64,000 nt of DNA, from assembly GCF_001658005.1 (NCBI RefSeq), contig NZ_CP015986.1:1489501-1553500 (forward strand), written 5' to 3'. Shown piece by piece: positions 7,835 to 59,975 of the stretch. The translations under genes were made by a program, and so were the position numbers. Position 1 is the stretch's first letter. Each line of letters starts with the position of its first letter. The stretch is from Sphingobium sp. EP60837 (GTDB taxonomy: Bacteria; Pseudomonadota; Alphaproteobacteria; Sphingomonadales; Sphingomonadaceae). The notes beneath the pieces were generated by a model, which searched no databases, had not been told where the DNA came from, and saw only the letters and a list, made by a program, of their open reading frames with translations.

Positions 7835-9202
7835 ATGGCGCATCATTTCCACCCTTCGCTCATGCGCGAATATGACATGCGCGGCGTCTTCGGCCGGACG
7901 CTCCGGGAGGAGGATGGCTATGCCGTGGGCCGCAGCTTCGGCACGATCGTCAGGCGCAAGGGCGGATCAAGGGTCGCGGTCGGCTATGACGGCCGGCTGA
8001 GCTCCCCGCCGCTCGAATCTGCGCTGGTTCGCGGCCTTATTGATAGCGGGGTGGATGCCGTGCGCATCGGCTTGGGGCCGACGCCCATGCTCTATCATGC
8101 CGAAACGGTGCTGGATGTGGATGGCGGCATCCAGATAACCGGCAGCCATAATCCCCGCGATCATAATGGCTTCAAGCTGGTGCTTGCGCATGAGCCCTTT
8201 TTTGGGTCGGACATTCTGCGCATGGGCGCGCTGGCGGCCGCTGGCGACTGGACGGAGGGCGCTGGCAGAATCGAAAATGCCGCCGTGCTCGACCATTATG
8301 TCGCCCGCTTGGTCGAGGGCTTCGACGGCGGAGCTTGGCGCATCGGCTGGGACGCGGGCAATGGAGCCGCCGGAACGGTCGTTGAAAAGCTCGTCAAGCT
8401 GCTTCCTGGAGAGCATCACACGCTCTTCACCCAGATAGACGGCAATTTTCCCAACCATCATCCCGATCCCACCGTTGAGCGAAATCTGCAGGATTTGCGC
8501 GCGCTTGTCCTTTCAAAAAAGCTCGATTTCGGCGTGGCTTTCGACGGCGACGCCGACCGGATCGGCGTGATCGATGGCAAGGGCCGGGTCATCTGGGGGG
8601 ACCAACTGATCGCTCTTTTTGCCGAAGTGGTGCTCAAAAACAGTCCCGGCGCGACGATCGTGGCGGATGTGAAGGCTAGCCAAACGCTGTTCGACCGCAT
8701 CGCTGCGCTCGGCGGTCGGCCGCTCATGTGGAAAACCGGCCACAGCCTGATCAAGTCCAAAATGAAGCAGGTCGGTAGCCCGCTGGGTGGCGAGATGACC
8801 GGCCACATCATGTTCGCTGACGATTATCCGGGCTATGACGATGGCCTCTATGCCGCCGTGCGCCTGATCAGAGCAGCGACCAGCCTGGGCCGCAGCATCA
8901 CCGCCCTGCGCAACGCCATGCCCGATCTGCCCGCCACTCCCGAACTGCGATTCCCGGTTCCGGAGACCCGCAAATTCGCTTTGGTGGACGAGATTGCCAA
9001 GCGCCTCCGCGCCGTTGGAGCCCGCATCGACGAGACCGACGGCGCCCGGGTCACGACCGATGACGGCTGGTGGCTGCTGCGCGCTTCCAACACGCAGGCC
9101 GAACTGGTCGGCCGGGCGGAGGCGCGTGATCGTGCAGGGCTCGATCGCCTGCTGGACGCGCTATATTCGCAGTTGCGAGAATCAGGCGTGACGGACGCTT
9201 GA
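7835..9202 (+). CDS. pgmG: Phosphomannomutase/phosphoglucomutase
   Basis: 455 residues of the alpha-D-phosphohexomutase family. The phosphoserine loop TGSHNP is at 102-107 (Ser104), the metal loop DGDADR at 237-242, the sugar loop GEMTGH at 318-323 and the C-terminal phosphate loop RASNTQAELVGRAEA. It interconverts mannose- or glucose-6-P with the 1-phosphates for exopolysaccharide and lipopolysaccharide precursors. Sphingomonads use the PgmG type for sphingan synthesis; the symbol is by family resemblance. The two small-RNA-like/terminator blocks of this region include one directly downstream. Confidence 0.9.
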   Translation: MAHHFHPSLMREYDMRGVFGRTLREEDGYAVGRSFGTIVRRKGGSRVAVGYDGRLSSPPLESALVRGLIDSGVDAVRIGLGPTPMLYHAETVLDVDGGIQITGSHNPRDHNGFKLVLAHEPFFGSDILRMGALAAAGDWTEGAGRIENAAVLDHYVARLVEGFDGGAWRIGWDAGNGAAGTVVEKLVKLLPGEHHTLFTQIDGNFPNHHPDPTVERNLQDLRALVLSKKLDFGVAFDGDADRIGVIDGKGRVIWGDQLIALFAEVVLKNSPGATIVADVKASQTLFDRIAALGGRPLMWKTGHSLIKSKMKQVGSPLGGEMTGHIMFADDYPGYDDGLYAAVRLIRAATSLGRSITALRNAMPDLPATPELRFPVPETRKFALVDEIAKRLRAVGARIDETDGARVTTDDGWWLLRASNTQAELVGRAEARDRAGLDRLLDALYSQLRESGVTDA

Positions 9203-9297: not shown

Positions 9298-9431
9298 GAT
9301 TGCGTCAAACGCAATCAACGGCGCTTCTTTCGCATTTGCAACAGATGCGAGTCAGCCGCAAAAGGGACGGGCCTTTCAGGCATCCTCTCCTAAAAACTTT
9401 CATAGCCGTCCTTCGGGACGGCTTTTTTTTT
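9298..9431 (+). ncRNA. Candidate small RNA, copy A, downstream of pgmG
   Basis: The 347-base gap 9203-9549 has no ORF but holds an element nearly identical in plan to one after ftsK (15745-15878). Shared blocks at identical spacing are: hairpin GATTGCG-TCAAA-CGCAATC (9298-9316); GCATTTG; GCCTTTCAGGC, a small hairpin; an unpaired pyrimidine-rich block ATCCTCTCC followed by TAAAAACTTT (9382-9400); and a TTCG-loop terminator. Both are 134 bases from first hairpin to end of T-run. CCTCTCC could pair with Shine-Dalgarno sequences, as in alphaproteobacterial trans-acting sRNAs. The true 5' end is unknown. Confidence 0.7.
9404..9431 (+). terminator. Rho-independent terminator of candidate sRNA A
   Basis: Perfect 8-bp stem AGCCGTCC / GGACGGCT (9404-9423) around a TTCG tetraloop, followed by a run of nine T. 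Confidence 0.93.
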
Positions 9432-9549
9432 GTTCTCGATCGGCCACTTTCCCGAACAAGAAATTAACCATGTCGCTGCTAACCGCCATCCTCAGTATAG
9501 AAGTTTCGCGGCTTGGGGGCCGCCACGACCAGTTTGAGGGGGGATGTAA

Positions 9550-10851
9550 ATGCCTGTTAACCGCCATGCCGCCGCTTTTCTTGTGTCTGCAGCGGTGCTT
9601 TCAGCGGTCCCTTTGCCGGCTCTTGCTGGGGGGTTCTATCTGCAGGAACAATCGCCAAAGGAAACCGGCAGGGCGCTTTCGGGCGGGGCTGCGGCTGCCG
9701 ACGATCCTTCCACCGTTTATTTCAATCCCGCGGCCATGACGCAGCTGCCGGGTATCCAGACTTCGTCTGGTGGCGTCCTGCTGTTCGCATCGGCCCGCCA
9801 GCAGGATCGCGGAACCACGCGCACGGTGCCTGGCCTTCCCGGATCGGTGCCGGTTGGCGGCACCTCAGGCGGCAATCCCTTCGACAGCCTTATTCCCGTG
9901 CCCAGCTTCTATGCGACCGGCCAGCTGTCCGACCGGCTGTGGCTTGGTCTCGGGGTGACGGCGCCCTTCGGGCTCAAGCTCGACTATGCCAATGATTTTT
10001 CCGGCCGCTATGACTCGCTGCATACCGAACTCAAAACCTATAATGTCCAGCCGTCGGCCGCCTATAAGCTGATGGACAACCTGTCGATCGGCGGCGGCGT
10101 CGATGTCCAATATGCAAAGGCAAAGCTGACCAATGCGCTGCCCAATCTGTCGCCGCTCGCGGCCGATGGTCATTTTCAGGTAAAGGGCGACGATCTGTCC
10201 TTCGGCTGGAATGCCGGTTTTTTCTACACCAGCGGCAGGACCAATTGGGGCATCCACTATCGTTCGGCCATCAAACACCGGATCGAAGGCAGCGCAACCT
10301 TGTCGGGCCTGTTAGGTCCGCTGGCGGTCGTCAACGGGACCAGCGATGCCAGCACCCCGCTCAACCTGCCCGATATCGTCACCGCCAGCATGATGCACCG
10401 CTTGAGTGCGCACGCTCGCGCGATGCTGACGGCCCGCTGGTATAATTGGTCGGTCTTCCGCGACATTGCCATCACCTCCGGCGCCGGCACATCGGTCAAG
10501 GAACTTCATTATCGCGATAGCTACAGCGTCAGCGCAGGCGGCGAATATGATGTCAGTCCTGCGCTCACGCTCCGCGGCGGAGCTATGTTCGACCGCACGC
10601 CGACCAATCCGCAATTTCTGACGACGCGCGTCCCCGATGGCGACCGCGCCTGGCTGTCGGGCGGCGCGACCTGGAACATGTCACCGGCGCTGGCGCTCAA
10701 TCTCAGCTACGCCCATAATTTCATCAAGCGGGTGACGATCCTGCGCGCCGACCATTATTATTCCGATCCGGCCGCCGTCACCGTAACGACGCGCTCACGG
10801 ACCAGCGGCAATGTCGATCAGATCGCTGCATCGGTGACGGCGCGGTTTTAA
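9550..10851 (+). CDS. OmpP1/FadL-family outer-membrane transporter
   Basis: 433 residues. The signal peptide is about residues 1-26 (cleavage after PLPALA), followed by GGFYLQEQSPKETGRALSGG, the N-terminal hatch-type sequence of FadL proteins, and the family motif STVYFNPAAMTQLPG. The rest alternates aromatic/polar beta strands and ends in Phe (SVTARF), as expected for an outer-membrane barrel. FadL proteins pass long-chain fatty acids or hydrophobic aromatic compounds; the substrate cannot be told here. It is monocistronic, ending at the terminator at 10872. Confidence 0.9.
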   Translation: MPVNRHAAAFLVSAAVLSAVPLPALAGGFYLQEQSPKETGRALSGGAAAADDPSTVYFNPAAMTQLPGIQTSSGGVLLFASARQQDRGTTRTVPGLPGSVPVGGTSGGNPFDSLIPVPSFYATGQLSDRLWLGLGVTAPFGLKLDYANDFSGRYDSLHTELKTYNVQPSAAYKLMDNLSIGGGVDVQYAKAKLTNALPNLSPLAADGHFQVKGDDLSFGWNAGFFYTSGRTNWGIHYRSAIKHRIEGSATLSGLLGPLAVVNGTSDASTPLNLPDIVTASMMHRLSAHARAMLTARWYNWSVFRDIAITSGAGTSVKELHYRDSYSVSAGGEYDVSPALTLRGGAMFDRTPTNPQFLTTRVPDGDRAWLSGGATWNMSPALALNLSYAHNFIKRVTILRADHYYSDPAAVTVTTRSRTSGNVDQIAASVTARF

Positions 10852-13269: not shown

Positions 13270-13418
13270 CTCGCCTACTGTCGCCTTCTCAAAATCCGCT
13301 CCAATTCGCTATTTCCTTCACTGTTTCGACAAGACGAGCCGAAAAGCCGGACTCTTGACGGCGACTCCTCCCTCGGCGCATTGTGCCGGAACGGAACATT
13401 TGGGGGACATTCGAGACC

Positions 13419-15740
13419 ATGGCTGTCAGCCGCGGAGCCAAGCGCACGCCGGAATGGCGCGAAATGCTGAAACGCAGCCTGATCCGCAGCGGCGCGCTGA
13501 TCAGCGCGATCGCGCTGATGCTGGCGACCCTGTTTCTCGCTCTCGCTCTCCTGAGCTTCCGCTTGAGCGACCCATCGATGATGACGGTCGCCGACGATCA
13601 GGTTCAAAACATCATGGGCTGGCCCGGCGCCTGGATCTCCGCCTTCCTCTTCACCCTGCTGGGCGTTCCTGTCGCGCTGATCCTTCCCCTTCTGGCGATC
13701 ACCGCCCGCCGTCTTTGGGGCGACCAGGACATGACCGGGTGGAAATCCCAGTTCGGCAAATGCCTCGGCGGAATTGCCCTTGTCGGCATCGCGCTCGCCA
13801 TGTTCCAGCCAGACTCCCTGATCGATCTACCCTCGGGCTGGGGCGGTCTGGTCGGTCTTGCGACGGCCAATGGCGTGCGCAGCCTCACGGCCCAAGCGGG
13901 CGCTGCGCAGGGCTGGATCACCGGAGGTCTCGTCGTCCTGGCGCTGATCGGCGGGCTCGCCCTCTGGTATCGTAGCCTCGCCTTGGAAAAGCCGATCCTT
14001 GCTCTCCGCCGCCCGTCCATGCCCAAGCTCGCCCTGCCACGGCCGAGTTTCGCACTGGCAGGCGCCGGCGCCTCGACCGATCTGGATGATGAGGAAGAGG
14101 TGGAGGACCGTGTCGTCAGCCCGCGGCGGACCGTGAGCAACGAACCCAAGCCGCCGATCACCATCCAGACGCCGAAGCCTGCTCCAGCCCAGCGGCAGAT
14201 GGCACCGGTGTCGCAGGACGATCTGTTCGGTAACAGTTCCCTGCCATCGCCCGACCTGCTCAATCCGATCCCGGCGAGCCAGAGCCAGAAGATCGATAAG
14301 GCTGCGCTGGAACGCAACGCCCGCCTGCTCGAAAGCGTGCTCGACGATTTCCACGTCAAAGGCAATATCGTCGAAGTCCGCCCCGGCCCGGTTGTCACCA
14401 TGTACGAGCTGGAGCCCGCGCCCGGCATCAAGGCAAGCCGCGTCATCGCGCTGGCCGATGATATTGCCCGCAACATGTCGGCGCTGTCAGCCCGCGTCGC
14501 GACCATTCCAGGCCGCACTGTCATCGGCATCGAACTGCCCAATGCCAACCGCGAAGGCGTTTCCTTCCGCGAACTGATCACCTCCGAACAGTTCGCGCAG
14601 GAAGCGACGCTGCCGATCATCCTGGGCAAAAATATCTCGGGCGAGCCGATCATCGCCGATCTCGCGCCCATGCCCCACCTGTTGATTGCGGGCACCACCG
14701 GATCGGGCAAGTCGGTGGGCCTCAACGCCATGATCCTGTCGCTGCTATACCGGATGACGCCGGACCAGCTGCGCCTGATCATGATCGACCCCAAGATGCT
14801 GGAACTATCGACCTACGACGATATCCCGCATCTCCTCTCGCCGGTCGTGACCGAGCCGAGCAAGGCGATCCGTGCGCTCAAATGGGCGGTCGAGCAGATG
14901 GAGGACCGCTATCGCATGATGGCGTCGATCTCCGTCCGCAACCTTGCCAACTATAATGAGAAGGTCCGCGCCGCGAAGGCTAAGGGCAAGCCCTTGGGCC
15001 GCCGCGTCCAGACCGGCTATGATCCCGAGACCGGAAAGCCGATTTACGAGGAAGAGCAGCTCGATTTCCAGCCCCTGCCGCAGATCGTGGTGGTGGTGGA
15101 CGAGCTGGCGGACCTCATGATGACGGCGGGCAAGGAAGTCGAATTCCTGATCCAGCGCCTCGCCCAAAAGGCCCGCGCAGCCGGTATCCACCTGATCCTG
15201 GCGACGCAGCGCCCGTCCGTCGATGTCATCACCGGCGTCATCAAGGCGAACCTGCCGACCCGTATCAGCTTCTTCGTAACGTCGAAGATCGATAGCCGCA
15301 CCATATTGGGCGAGCAGGGCGCAGAACAGCTGCTCGGCAAGGGCGACATGCTCTATATGCACGGTGGCAAGGGCCTGATGCGCGTTCACGGTCCCTTCGT
15401 GTCGGATGACGAAGTCCGCGTAGTCGCCGATCACTGGCGCGCTCAGGGTCAGCCCGACTATATCTCCGCTGTGACCGAGGAACCGGAAGAGGGCAGCTTC
15501 GCCCTTGACGGTGTGGACCTTGGCGACGACAGCCCCGACGCCCAGCTATTCCGCAAAGCATGCCAACTGGTCTTTGAAAATCAGAAGGCGTCCACCAGTT
15601 GGCTGCAGCGCCAGCTCCGCGTCGGCTACAACAGCGCTGCACGCCTGATCGAACGAATGGAAGAGGAAGGGCTGGTCGGACCGCCCAATCATGTGGGCCG
15701 CCGCGAGGTGCTGCGTGATGAGAATGGCAATCCGCTTTGA
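13419..15740 (+). CDS. ftsK: DNA translocase FtsK
   Basis: 773 residues from the ATG at 13419 (MAVSRGAKRTPEW). The frame also allows a GTG 12 codons upstream, but GGGGGAC and GAGA purine tracts precede 13419. Four N-terminal membrane helices (about 25-190), a Pro-rich linker, then the RecA-like motor with Walker A GTTGSGKS at about 425-432 and Walker B VVVVDELADLM. The C-terminal winged-helix gamma domain (STSWLQRQLRVGYNSAARLIERMEEEGLV) reads KOPS polarity. It couples chromosome dimer resolution and terminus segregation to division. The short linker is typical of alphaproteobacteria. Confidence 0.95.
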   Translation: MAVSRGAKRTPEWREMLKRSLIRSGALISAIALMLATLFLALALLSFRLSDPSMMTVADDQVQNIMGWPGAWISAFLFTLLGVPVALILPLLAITARRLWGDQDMTGWKSQFGKCLGGIALVGIALAMFQPDSLIDLPSGWGGLVGLATANGVRSLTAQAGAAQGWITGGLVVLALIGGLALWYRSLALEKPILALRRPSMPKLALPRPSFALAGAGASTDLDDEEEVEDRVVSPRRTVSNEPKPPITIQTPKPAPAQRQMAPVSQDDLFGNSSLPSPDLLNPIPASQSQKIDKAALERNARLLESVLDDFHVKGNIVEVRPGPVVTMYELEPAPGIKASRVIALADDIARNMSALSARVATIPGRTVIGIELPNANREGVSFRELITSEQFAQEATLPIILGKNISGEPIIADLAPMPHLLIAGTTGSGKSVGLNAMILSLLYRMTPDQLRLIMIDPKMLELSTYDDIPHLLSPVVTEPSKAIRALKWAVEQMEDRYRMMASISVRNLANYNEKVRAAKAKGKPLGRRVQTGYDPETGKPIYEEEQLDFQPLPQIVVVVDELADLMMTAGKEVEFLIQRLAQKARAAGIHLILATQRPSVDVITGVIKANLPTRISFFVTSKIDSRTILGEQGAEQLLGKGDMLYMHGGKGLMRVHGPFVSDDEVRVVADHWRAQGQPDYISAVTEEPEEGSFALDGVDLGDDSPDAQLFRKACQLVFENQKASTSWLQRQLRVGYNSAARLIERMEEEGLVGPPNHVGRREVLRDENGNPL

Positions 15741-15744
15741 TCAC

Positions 15745-15878
15745 GATTGCGTCAAATGCAATCACTTGCCCGCTCTATGCATTTGTCAAAAGGACCGGCA
15801 CCGTTCAATGAGGGCGTGCCTTTCAGGCATCCTCTCCTAAAAACTTTTCAGGCTGGTCTTCGGACCGGCCTTTTTTTT
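15745..15878 (+). ncRNA. Candidate small RNA, copy B, downstream of ftsK
   Basis: A paralogue of the element at 9298-9431. The first hairpin GATTGC-GTCAAAT-GCAATC (15745-15763) starts four bases after the ftsK stop. GCATTTG comes at the same offset, then GCCTTTCAGGC, the block ATCCTCTCC followed by TAAAAACTTT (15829-15847), and a TTCG-loop terminator. Total length equals copy A. The 32 bases between GCATTTG and GCCTTTCAGGC differ completely between copies, so conservation is patterned, as in a functional RNA. The 5' end is not determined and the first hairpin could be DNA-level control. Confidence 0.7.
15851..15878 (+). terminator. Rho-independent terminator of candidate sRNA B (and possibly ftsK)
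   Basis: An 8-bp stem GGCTGGTC / GACCGGCC with one G-T pair, a TTCG loop, and eight T. Same position and loop as in copy A, but with a different stem sequence, that is, compensatory change. Confidence 0.92.
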
Positions 15879-16017
15879 GTTCTTGCCAGCCCTTACACCC
15901 CGGACGCGCGCTTTAGCCGCTGCTGAGCGTCTGCGTGTTCAGGAACGCATTCAGTTCACTATGGGTTCAATGGGTCATCCCTATTCCTGACCCTCAACAA
16001 AAAGCGGAGAAGAATGC

Positions 16018-16656
16018 ATGAAGCGCTCGGTTGCGCCCCTCCTCCTGGCCCTCGCTGCCGCGCCACTGGCGAATCTTGCTGCCCCTGTCCAAGCGCAGCA
16101 GACACAGGCCGGTCTGGAGCAGGTGAACGCCTATATCCGTGGGGTCACGACCATGACCGCCGACTTTACTCAGACTGACCGGAACGGCCAGACACTGACC
16201 GGCAAGCTCATCATCAAGCAGCCGGGTAAGGTCCGCTTCCAATATCAGAAGGGCGTACCGCTGCTCATCGTCGGCGACGGGAAGGCGCTGACGATGATCG
16301 ACTATGAAGTCCGCCAAGTGCAGCGCTGGCCGATAGGCAGTTCGCCCCTCGGCGCTCTGCTCGATCCTAAAAAGGACCTGTCGCGTTTCGGCAAGCTGAT
16401 CCAGACCGGCGACCCCAAGGTGCTGAGCGTCCAGGCGCGCGATCCGAAACGCCCTGAATTCGGCACCATCACCATGATCTTCCAGCGCGATGCGTCTGGT
16501 CCGGCAGGCCTGCAGCTTTACGGATGGGTCGCACTGGATTCGCAAAATAACCGCACCACCGTCCGCCTTTCCAACCAGCGGTACGGCGTCGCGGTGGCAG
16601 ATTCGGCCTTCCGCTGGAACGACCCGCGGCCCAAGGGGCGCGCTGCTGGGGGGTGA
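16018..16656 (+). CDS. lolA: LolA-family outer-membrane lipoprotein carrier
   Basis: 212 residues. The signal peptide is about 1-27 (LPLANLAAPVQAQ region), then the LolA/LppX fold. Family-like segments are TMTADFTQTDRNGQTLTGKLIIKQPGKVRFQY and GDGKALTMIDYEVRQVQRWPI. LolA receives lipoproteins from LolCDE at the inner membrane and delivers them to the outer membrane. Genes upstream (ftsK) and downstream (xth) are the usual alphaproteobacterial neighbours. The lower-scoring relatives of LolA include other periplasmic lipid carriers, so the exact partner is inferred. Confidence 0.87.
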   Translation: MKRSVAPLLLALAAAPLANLAAPVQAQQTQAGLEQVNAYIRGVTTMTADFTQTDRNGQTLTGKLIIKQPGKVRFQYQKGVPLLIVGDGKALTMIDYEVRQVQRWPIGSSPLGALLDPKKDLSRFGKLIQTGDPKVLSVQARDPKRPEFGTITMIFQRDASGPAGLQLYGWVALDSQNNRTTVRLSNQRYGVAVADSAFRWNDPRPKGRAAGG

Positions 16657-31234: not shown

Positions 31235-31326
31235 TGGCGGAGACGGAGGGATTCGAACCCTCGGTACCGTATTCACAGTACGACGGTTTAGCAAACCGTT
31301 GGTTTCAGCCACTCACCCACGTCTCC
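31235..31326 (-). tRNA. tRNA-Ser (anticodon GCU)
   Basis: On the minus strand the acceptor stem GGAGACG pairs with CGTCTCC, then G discriminator and encoded CCA (31235-31237). The anticodon arm AACGGTTTGCTAAACCGT gives GCU. A long variable arm and the T-loop GTTCGAATC identify a class II tRNA-Ser of 92 bases with CCA, reading AGC/AGU. Confidence 0.97.
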
Positions 31327-59888: not shown

Positions 59889-59975
59889 TGGTGCCCAGAA
59901 GAGGACTCGAACCTCCACGACCTTGCGATCGCCAGCACCTGAAGCTGGTGCGTCTACCAATTCCGCCATCTGGGC
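59889..59975 (-). tRNA. tRNA-Leu (anticodon CAG)
   Basis: On the minus strand acceptor GCCCAGA pairs with TCTGGGC, discriminator A and encoded CCA (59889-59891). The anticodon stem CCAGC/GCTGG encloses TTCAGGT, giving anticodon CAG (reads CUG). A long variable arm and T-loop GGTTCGAGTCC identify tRNA-Leu, 87 bases. Its 3' end faces the integrase remnant, the usual target of P4-type integrases. Confidence 0.97.

Follow-up and report, generated by a model that had tools for sequence, protein, structure and literature searches.

The elements and their surroundings

The window considered here, a stretch of 64,000 nucleotides from Sphingobium sp. EP60837, carries two elements of 134 bases, copy A (9298-9431) behind pgmG and copy B (15745-15878) behind ftsK. 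Besides these, a scan of the window against Rfam gave, at gathering cut-offs, only two minus-strand tRNA genes (31238-31326 and 59892-59975). The genes and predicted features are:

7835-9202, plus strand: pgmG (phosphoglucomutase/phosphomannomutase), upstream of copy A (NF046027, 751 bits, cut-off 600)
9299-9315, no strand: copy A inverted repeat ATTGC-N7-GCAAT, predicted LysR-type operator IR1, centred at 9307 (about -63), from repeat comparison
9336-9341, plus strand: copy A predicted -35, TTGCAA, within the conserved block TTTCGCATTTG, from copies aligned on TTG
9359-9364, plus strand: copy A predicted -10, CAAAAG (family consensus CAnAnA), weak by sigma-70 standards
9370-9431, plus strand: copy A predicted SuhB transcript, about 62 nt (RF00519 match 9364-9438; start placed by promoter spacing)
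9371-9381, plus strand: copy A 5' mini-hairpin GCCTTTCAGGC, with three core pairs present in 172 of 172 unique RNAs
9382-9390, plus strand: copy A anti-Shine-Dalgarno seed ATCCTCTCC, single-stranded; it stays mostly unpaired when the 63-nt piece is folded
9404-9431, plus strand: copy A predicted intrinsic terminator, TTCG loop and T run, from the fold
9550-10851, plus strand: OmpP1/FadL-type outer membrane transporter, downstream of copy A (PF03349, 290 bits)
13383-15740, plus strand: ftsK, upstream of copy B (PF01580, PF09397)
15746-15762, no strand: copy B inverted repeat ATTGC-N7-GCAAT, predicted operator IR1, directly 3' of the ftsK stop codon (ORF end 15740)
15783-15788, plus strand: copy B predicted -35, TTGTCA, from alignment on TTG
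15806-15811, plus strand: copy B predicted -10, CAATGA, from alignment on TTG; a poor -10
15817-15878, plus strand: copy B predicted SuhB transcript, about 62 nt (RF00519 match 15811-15886, 51.4 bits)
15818-15828 and 15829-15837, plus strand: copy B mini-hairpin and seed, followed by a terminator, all inside the predicted transcript
16018-16656, plus strand: lolA, downstream of copy B (PF03548)

An earlier, sequence-only reading had proposed that the two elements share named blocks at fixed offsets around a hypervariable middle, and the alignment agrees with this. Compared without gaps, A and B are identical at 92 of 134 positions; copy B shuffled 10,000 times gave a mean of 34 identities with copy A and a maximum of 54. 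Block by block, identity is 18/19 in GATTGC..GCAATC, 5/14 in the 14 bases 3' of it, 7/8 in the CGCATTTG block, 12/33 in the 33-base middle, 29/30 in the CCTTTCAGGCATCCTCTCCTAAAAACTTT(C/T) block and 21/30 in the terminator. The same reading took each element as a whole for a trans-acting sRNA, and this held only in part: the suhB/mmgR class, the terminator fold and the CU-rich block stand, while the 5' hairpin, the GCATTTG block and the middle are not supported as RNA.

Membership of the suhB/mmgR family

Both elements score above the gathering cut-off (41) of RF00519 in Rfam release 15, copy A with 46.2 and copy B with 51.4 bits, which confirms the class that had been suggested from the sequence; by this model, A and B are members of the suhB/mmgR family. 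The matches cover the elements from 9364 and 15811 onward, that is, the 3' half of each, and display the structural features of RF00519, namely a 5' mini-hairpin, a single-stranded CU-rich block and an intrinsic terminator. The 10-mer core of the alphaR8 group, UUUCCUCCCU, does not occur in A or B, which have AUCCUCUCCU in its place; among the 29 best-scoring RF00519 loci from outside the host family, 28 have TTCCTCCC (L405 was not anchored). Since the seed AUCCUCUCC differs from the alphaR8 core of Caulobacter, the sphingomonad RNAs form a divergent branch, and on these sequences A and B belong to that branch of RF00519 and are not canonical alphaR8 RNAs.

The predicted RNA consists of the mini-hairpin, the seed AUCCUCUCC and the terminator, about 62 nt for each copy judging by promoter spacing. 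To compare it across copies, 172 unique RNAs were excised under a fixed rule, each beginning 12 bases 5' of the seed (median length 63 nt, range 45 to 70). The three pairs of the mini-hairpin core are intact throughout and scarcely variable, and say little about structure because they hardly vary. The terminator is more instructive: up to six pair types occur at one position, with pairing kept in 156/161 to 159/161 RNAs in the middle of the stem, 135/160 at its base and 126/144 beside the loop, so that the earlier claim of stems that change in sequence and keep their fold is mostly borne out. The CU-rich anti-Shine-Dalgarno block, also predicted to be unpaired, is present, and the seed is mostly unpaired in the fold, between mini-hairpin and terminator. 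We suppose that A and B each encode a trans-acting sRNA of about 62 nt, presumably Hfq-dependent, whose single-stranded AUCCUCUCC would pair with Shine-Dalgarno regions and block translation.

What had been described as a pair is in fact part of a larger set. The genome (4.26 Mb, four contigs) contains eight RF00519 matches, six of them above the cut-off; these six close copies (L001-L006) are spread over three contigs and, when aligned, have seed, mini-hairpin and promoter blocks in common, with the inverted repeat, exact or slightly degenerate, in all six. The two weaker matches, L007 (39.9 bits) and L008 (30.1 bits), differ from them in seed and promoter. Across the genus, RF00519 was found in 61 of 61 genomes (our own included) with 2 to 11 matches each, and in seven genomes from which every listed match was fetched (our own and six others) the copies with the CATCCTCTCC seed number 6, 6, 6, 6, 7, 5 and 5, the repeat being kept in 39 of these 41. 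In a survey of the family under stricter filters most other genera had 1 to 3 matches, with a maximum of 7, and RF00519 was absent from 17 of 149 genomes. Among loci long enough to show their neighbours, 15 copies (13 from the genus and two from other genera) stand next to pgmG and/or the FadL-type gene, and 15 from the genus, our own included, have ftsK beside them, with or without lolA. Copies A and B are old, because their flanking genes are conserved in other genomes.

Some features of the other matches deserve mention. L007 (outside the window, at C1:2492142-2492219; L007:1400-1580) is another RF00519-like RNA, with seed TCTCCTCCCTGAACC and a promoter resembling TTGAAA-N17-TATCTT; similar matches occur in congeners (L121-L123, L125, L126, L134), and it is possibly nearer to canonical alphaR8. 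L001 lies on the 269-kb contig C3, perhaps a plasmid, where two neighbouring frames look by eye like an IS21-like transposase and an HU-like protein. On contig C2 the SuhB copy is followed downstream by a ROS/MUCR-type regulator gene (PF05443, L005:548-1282).

Probable promoter architecture of the 5' half

From the host family 193 RF00519 loci were fetched, of which 177 carry the seed. Upstream of the seed, in a 26-base search range, TGC-N7-GCA is found in 156 of the 177 (103/108 from the same genus, 53/69 from other genera; shuffled sequences 0.7%) and is missing in 21; it lies 79-82 bases before the seed in 155 copies and at 74 in one. A -35 block lies 48 to 51 bases before the seed in 175 of 177, reading GCAnTTG in 167 and GCGnTTG or ACAATTG in the remainder, and in 149 of 154 copies 30 or 31 bp separate it from the repeat. 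Alignment of the 175 copies on TTG gives a logo of RTTGCA-N5-TGCAAY, a free stretch, TTTTCGCAcTTGC, 17 bp, CAnAnA (its first A in 98% of copies) and the start of the mini-hairpin. Read as a promoter, this gives an operator, a -35, a spacer, a -10 and a start in that order, and what had been called the 'hypervariable middle' is spacer and flank. Homologues without the conserved blocks would have told against the earlier reading; they keep the blocks, though as parts of a promoter and of an RNA. The GATTGC/GCAATC hairpin, GCATTTG and the variable middle, which had been assigned to the RNA, are placed in the 177 copies like an operator, a -35 and the spacer between -35 and -10. Both blocks are lacking in all 16 fetched family matches with another seed. 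In the 29 loci from outside the family the seed and a relative of the regulator described below were found in none, and the repeat in one, off its place. Three of these loci (L395, L410, L414) have a GCAnTTG block without the repeat, possibly related to the sphingomonad promoter design.

The predicted operator has the format of a LysR-type site, a 15-bp inverted repeat with T-N11-A whose distal copy lies near -65 (PMC5002191), and TTGC-N7-GCAA is centred at -63 from the predicted start. That format has a second site about 22 bp further downstream; here there may be one near -42, for which the right half CGCA is present in 149 of 175 copies and the left half (TG at -14) in 37 of 69 copies from other genera and 7 of 106 from the host genus. 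We envisage, as a proposal, six dispersed genes with one promoter design, in which RTTGCA-N5-TGCAAY is centred close to -63, the TTTTCGCA block holds a second site that is half conserved, CTTGCR contains the -35, and 17 bp separate this from the CAnAnA of the -10. The copy linked to the regulator, L002, has an imperfect repeat, ATGC-N7-GCAA. A search of the family with the pattern RTTGCANNNNNTGCAAY, which served to spot repeats at regulator genes unlinked to SuhB, gave matches in 34 of 49 genomes, most of them not placed. The 17-mer GTTGCACAAAATGCAAC occurs in both genera, at C1:273693-273709 of our own genome (L049) and at G088:C2:266422-266438; L049 is a seemingly intergenic stretch, not among the SuhB copies, and a possible further operator site.

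A divergent LysR-type regulator

Divergent from L002, with the operator between them, is a LysR-type gene (PF00126, PF03466). Its best NCBIfam model is GcvA (NF008352), at 197 bits against a cut-off of 288, so that it is GcvA-like and not GcvA; its nearest named relatives are in Sphingobium, with up to 94% identity. Of the RF00519 loci inspected for it, 36 show at least part of a relative. Its start could be placed in 33 of them, and there the distance upstream to the SuhB seed, on the opposite strand, is 167 to 215 nt. When the nearest 80 of 564 named regulator loci were inspected, which are mostly from Sphingobium and Sphingomonas, a divergent SuhB was found within 320 bp in 75, with the operator at a fixed place in 73; Sphingobium sp. 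SYK-6 (L358) is among the five without it. In 30 regulator loci from genomes of many genera SuhB is adjacent in 10, which means that the linkage is absent in part of the family.

Regulator and sRNA also occur together across genomes. With the regulator counted at 50% identity or more and RF00519 at E <= 2e-6, criteria that were set after the lists had been seen, the regulator is present in 67 of 70 tested genomes that have RF00519; among 8 genomes whose matches are weaker it is present in 2, and none of the 17 genomes lacking SuhB has it (Fisher p 2e-15; pooling the weak and the empty genomes gives 1e-16; neither value is corrected for phylogeny). Each of the 67 has one regulator match, that of G202 being a fragment; more distant LysR matches of 36-37% in G144, G072 and G158 were left out of the count. 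The three exceptions are of two kinds. In G204 the regulator was not found, and of its two SuhB matches the one that was read has the -35 block and lacks TGC-N7-GCA; if this reading is right, G204 is a natural double loss of repeat and regulator. In G152 and G194 (94% and 77% complete) the regulator was not found despite the repeat.

Taken as a whole, sequence comparison makes evident the family membership, the six copies with one promoter architecture in common, a terminator that covaries, and a regulator gene that is divergent from SuhB and occurs together with it across genomes. We propose that the inverted repeat is the operator of the GcvA-like regulator, whose single-copy gene stands divergent from one SuhB copy, and that this one regulator most likely activates the whole SuhB family, as GcvA activates the divergent gcvB, activation and not repression being the presumed direction. 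Two further roles were considered and set aside. Autoregulation through the repeat where the regulator is unlinked to SuhB does not hold as a rule, as the repeat lies upstream of the regulator in only 4 of 20 such loci, two of them convincing by eye (L263, L273). Feedback of SuhB on the regulator was likewise dropped: the seed complement GGAGAGGATGC precedes the LysR gene in some Sphingobium loci (L020, L021, L023, L025, L142), as if opening a short frame, at a point further upstream than the start codon used, and was not found upstream of the gene in our own genome, where the list of seed complements contains only the SuhB copy there.

Alternative explanations

We consider it likely that the elements belong to a six-copy family of SuhB sRNAs of about 62 nt, with a shared operator, one divergent GcvA-like LysR regulator and PhaR-like sites on some copies, and three other explanations must be set against this. 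The original one, a single trans-acting sRNA of 100-134 nt in which the 5' hairpin GATTGC/GCAATC and the variable middle are transcribed, draws on the strong 5' hairpin in the folds of both 134-mers, and L007, another RF00519-type RNA of the genome, may be longer. The pairing of the repeat offers a test between them. At flank positions -11 to -8 pairing exceeds almost all shuffles, which an RNA helix would produce and a symmetrical operator also predicts. Across 143 distinct sites the A-C and G-T counts are 21 and 14 at -9, 20 and 21 at -8, and 11 and 22 at -3; the last is what an RNA helix would show, but summed over the three positions the two combinations are about equally common (A-C 52, G-T 57), which fits a DNA palindrome better than an RNA helix. 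The test favours the DNA reading without proving it. Added to this, the supposed RNA contains a spacing like that of -35 and -10, the full-length Rfam match begins at 9364 and SuhB is reported as 61 nt (PMC6563040). The 5' half is thus best explained, on the comparison of copies, as promoter DNA and not as part of one 134-nt RNA, which makes a long sRNA very unlikely.

It is less improbable, though still unlikely, that the sRNAs and the operator are as described and the binder is another protein, such as an IlvY-type LysR, a Fur-type or an unlinked factor, with the divergent LysR gene a bystander. The consensus is the same as the published IlvY site (PMC5002191), 20 of the 30 regulator loci are not adjacent to SuhB, and G152 and G194 have the operator with no regulator detected; yet the divergent arrangement in 75 of the nearest 80 (of 564) named loci, 73 with the operator between, the co-occurrence of 67/70 against 0/17, and the repeat and regulator both wanting in G204 all speak for the divergent LysR protein. 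Two candidates taken from related systems fit poorly, since by eye the repeat accommodates neither box: that of PhaR/AniA is TGC-N3-GCA, where the repeat is TGC-N7-GCA, and that of VtlR is GCAT-N3-TG-N3-T, where copy A reads GCATTTGCA and copy B GCATTTGTC. Finally, there might be no sRNA genes at all, A and B being the terminator regions of pgmG and ftsK with conserved 3' ends. Both do stand directly downstream of co-directional genes, but the other four copies of the genome are beside other genes, the element is divergent from a LysR gene in those same 75 of 80 loci, and it has a promoter-like signature of its own, so that we give this explanation almost no credence.

Comparison with known systems

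A close counterpart by description is the SuhB of Sphingopyxis granuli TFA, an Hfq-dependent sRNA that is reported to bind the thnR 5' UTR and to repress translation, helping to decide when tetralin degradation is switched on, with expression that follows growth rate (PMC6563040). It resembles the RNAs predicted here in coming from a sphingomonad, in its name and in length (61 nt against about 62), a likeness by description. It differs in being presented as one sRNA tied to growth rate and PHB state, and the portion of PMC6563040 drawn on here describes no operator or multi-copy family and names no regulator. The present result would supply SuhB with one candidate regulator gene and one predicted operator, and the shared operator would explain the upstream 'hairpin' common to the siblings. 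No link between a LysR regulator and SuhB was met in the open-licence literature among the matches listed, and PMC4741004 does not mention SuhB.

Among alphaR8 RNAs, SisA-D of Caulobacter crescentus are likewise described as dispersed siblings with an anti-Shine-Dalgarno core, a weak 5' hairpin and a terminator (PMC12559287). In contrast to the copies here, their core is UUUCCUCCCU and not AUCCUCUCC, their promoters are described as lacking a conserved motif (PMC12559287) where our six copies have operator and -35 in common, and no FGase gene stands immediately beside A or B. MmgR of Sinorhizobium meliloti, also alphaR8 and RF00519, has a promoter to which PhaR is reported to bind, at a PhaR/AniA site resembling the -10 sites of L002 and L004 (PMC12542648); it differs in its reported length of 77 nt and its control by NtrC and AniA, and the part of PMC7143759 used here describes no LysR operator for it (PMC7143759).

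The regulatory arrangement has an analogue in the enterobacterial gcvA-gcvB pair, in which a LysR regulator is divergent from an sRNA that it activates through two 15-bp inverted repeats, the distal one at -65 (PMC5002191, PMC1557403); here IR1 is predicted at -63, and our regulator scores best against the GcvA model. The GcvA site is given as ATTAG-n5-CTAAT, with IR1 at -65 and IR2 at -43 from gcvB, while that of IlvY is TTGCA-n5-TGCAA with IR1 at -65, and IR1 of MetR is at -63 (PMC5002191). The systems are distinct in that site and in the number of sRNA genes, one there and six here, and the scan of the window gave no Rfam match to GcvB. A LysR regulator that activates anti-Shine-Dalgarno sRNAs is also described for alphaproteobacteria in VtlR/LsrB-AbcR (PMC7486931, PMC8844928); however, the VtlR box (GCAT-N3-TG-N3-T, PMC7486931) is unmatched here and the AbcR RNAs of S. 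meliloti are given as 114 and 121 nt (PMC8844928).

We lean towards a dedicated sphingomonad LysR-sRNA circuit. Its single-copy GcvA-like regulator would bind TTGCA-N5-TGCAA in the promoters of the SuhB genes and let one metabolic signal dose the whole family at once, combining a redundancy like that of Qrr with a switch like GcvA/GcvB, while PhaR sites would let PHB status gate a subset. If this is true, the genome carries the operator at SuhB promoters on two large contigs and one smaller, many species have the regulator gene back to back with one SuhB gene, and the arrangement stands in contrast to the Caulobacter siblings with their unrelated promoters. It would offer a case of sibling sRNAs that keep a common control while some gain extra inputs.

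Possible storage-polymer input and candidate targets

Of 175 copies, 68 have the PhaR core YGCRNYGCR between the -35 and the start, against 0.6% in shuffled sequence, and 59 of these occurrences share one position, which runs into the -10. In our own genome it is at that position in L002 and L004 and one base off in L001, and there is none between -35 and start in A, B or L005. The genome has a PhaR gene (PF07879, 109 bits), and PhaR-like sites at the -10 of some copies, A and B not among them, would add an input from storage polymer to the common control by the LysR regulator.

With regard to targets, the seed complement GGAGAGGATG occurs 33 times in our own genome, compared with five for the reversed pattern, and six of the 33 occurrences are the SuhB copies themselves. 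Of 30 such loci that were read, five are SuhB copies, and among the other 25 eight have an open frame, possibly a gene, of at least 60 codons at the ATG concerned; this count gives no firm ground for taking pairing with Shine-Dalgarno sequence plus AUG as the rule. By analogy with SisA, TonB receptors and transporters would be expected among the targets. One occurrence, at C2:126532-126541 (L234), starts a frame that by eye resembles a TonB receptor, and this is a candidate SuhB target.
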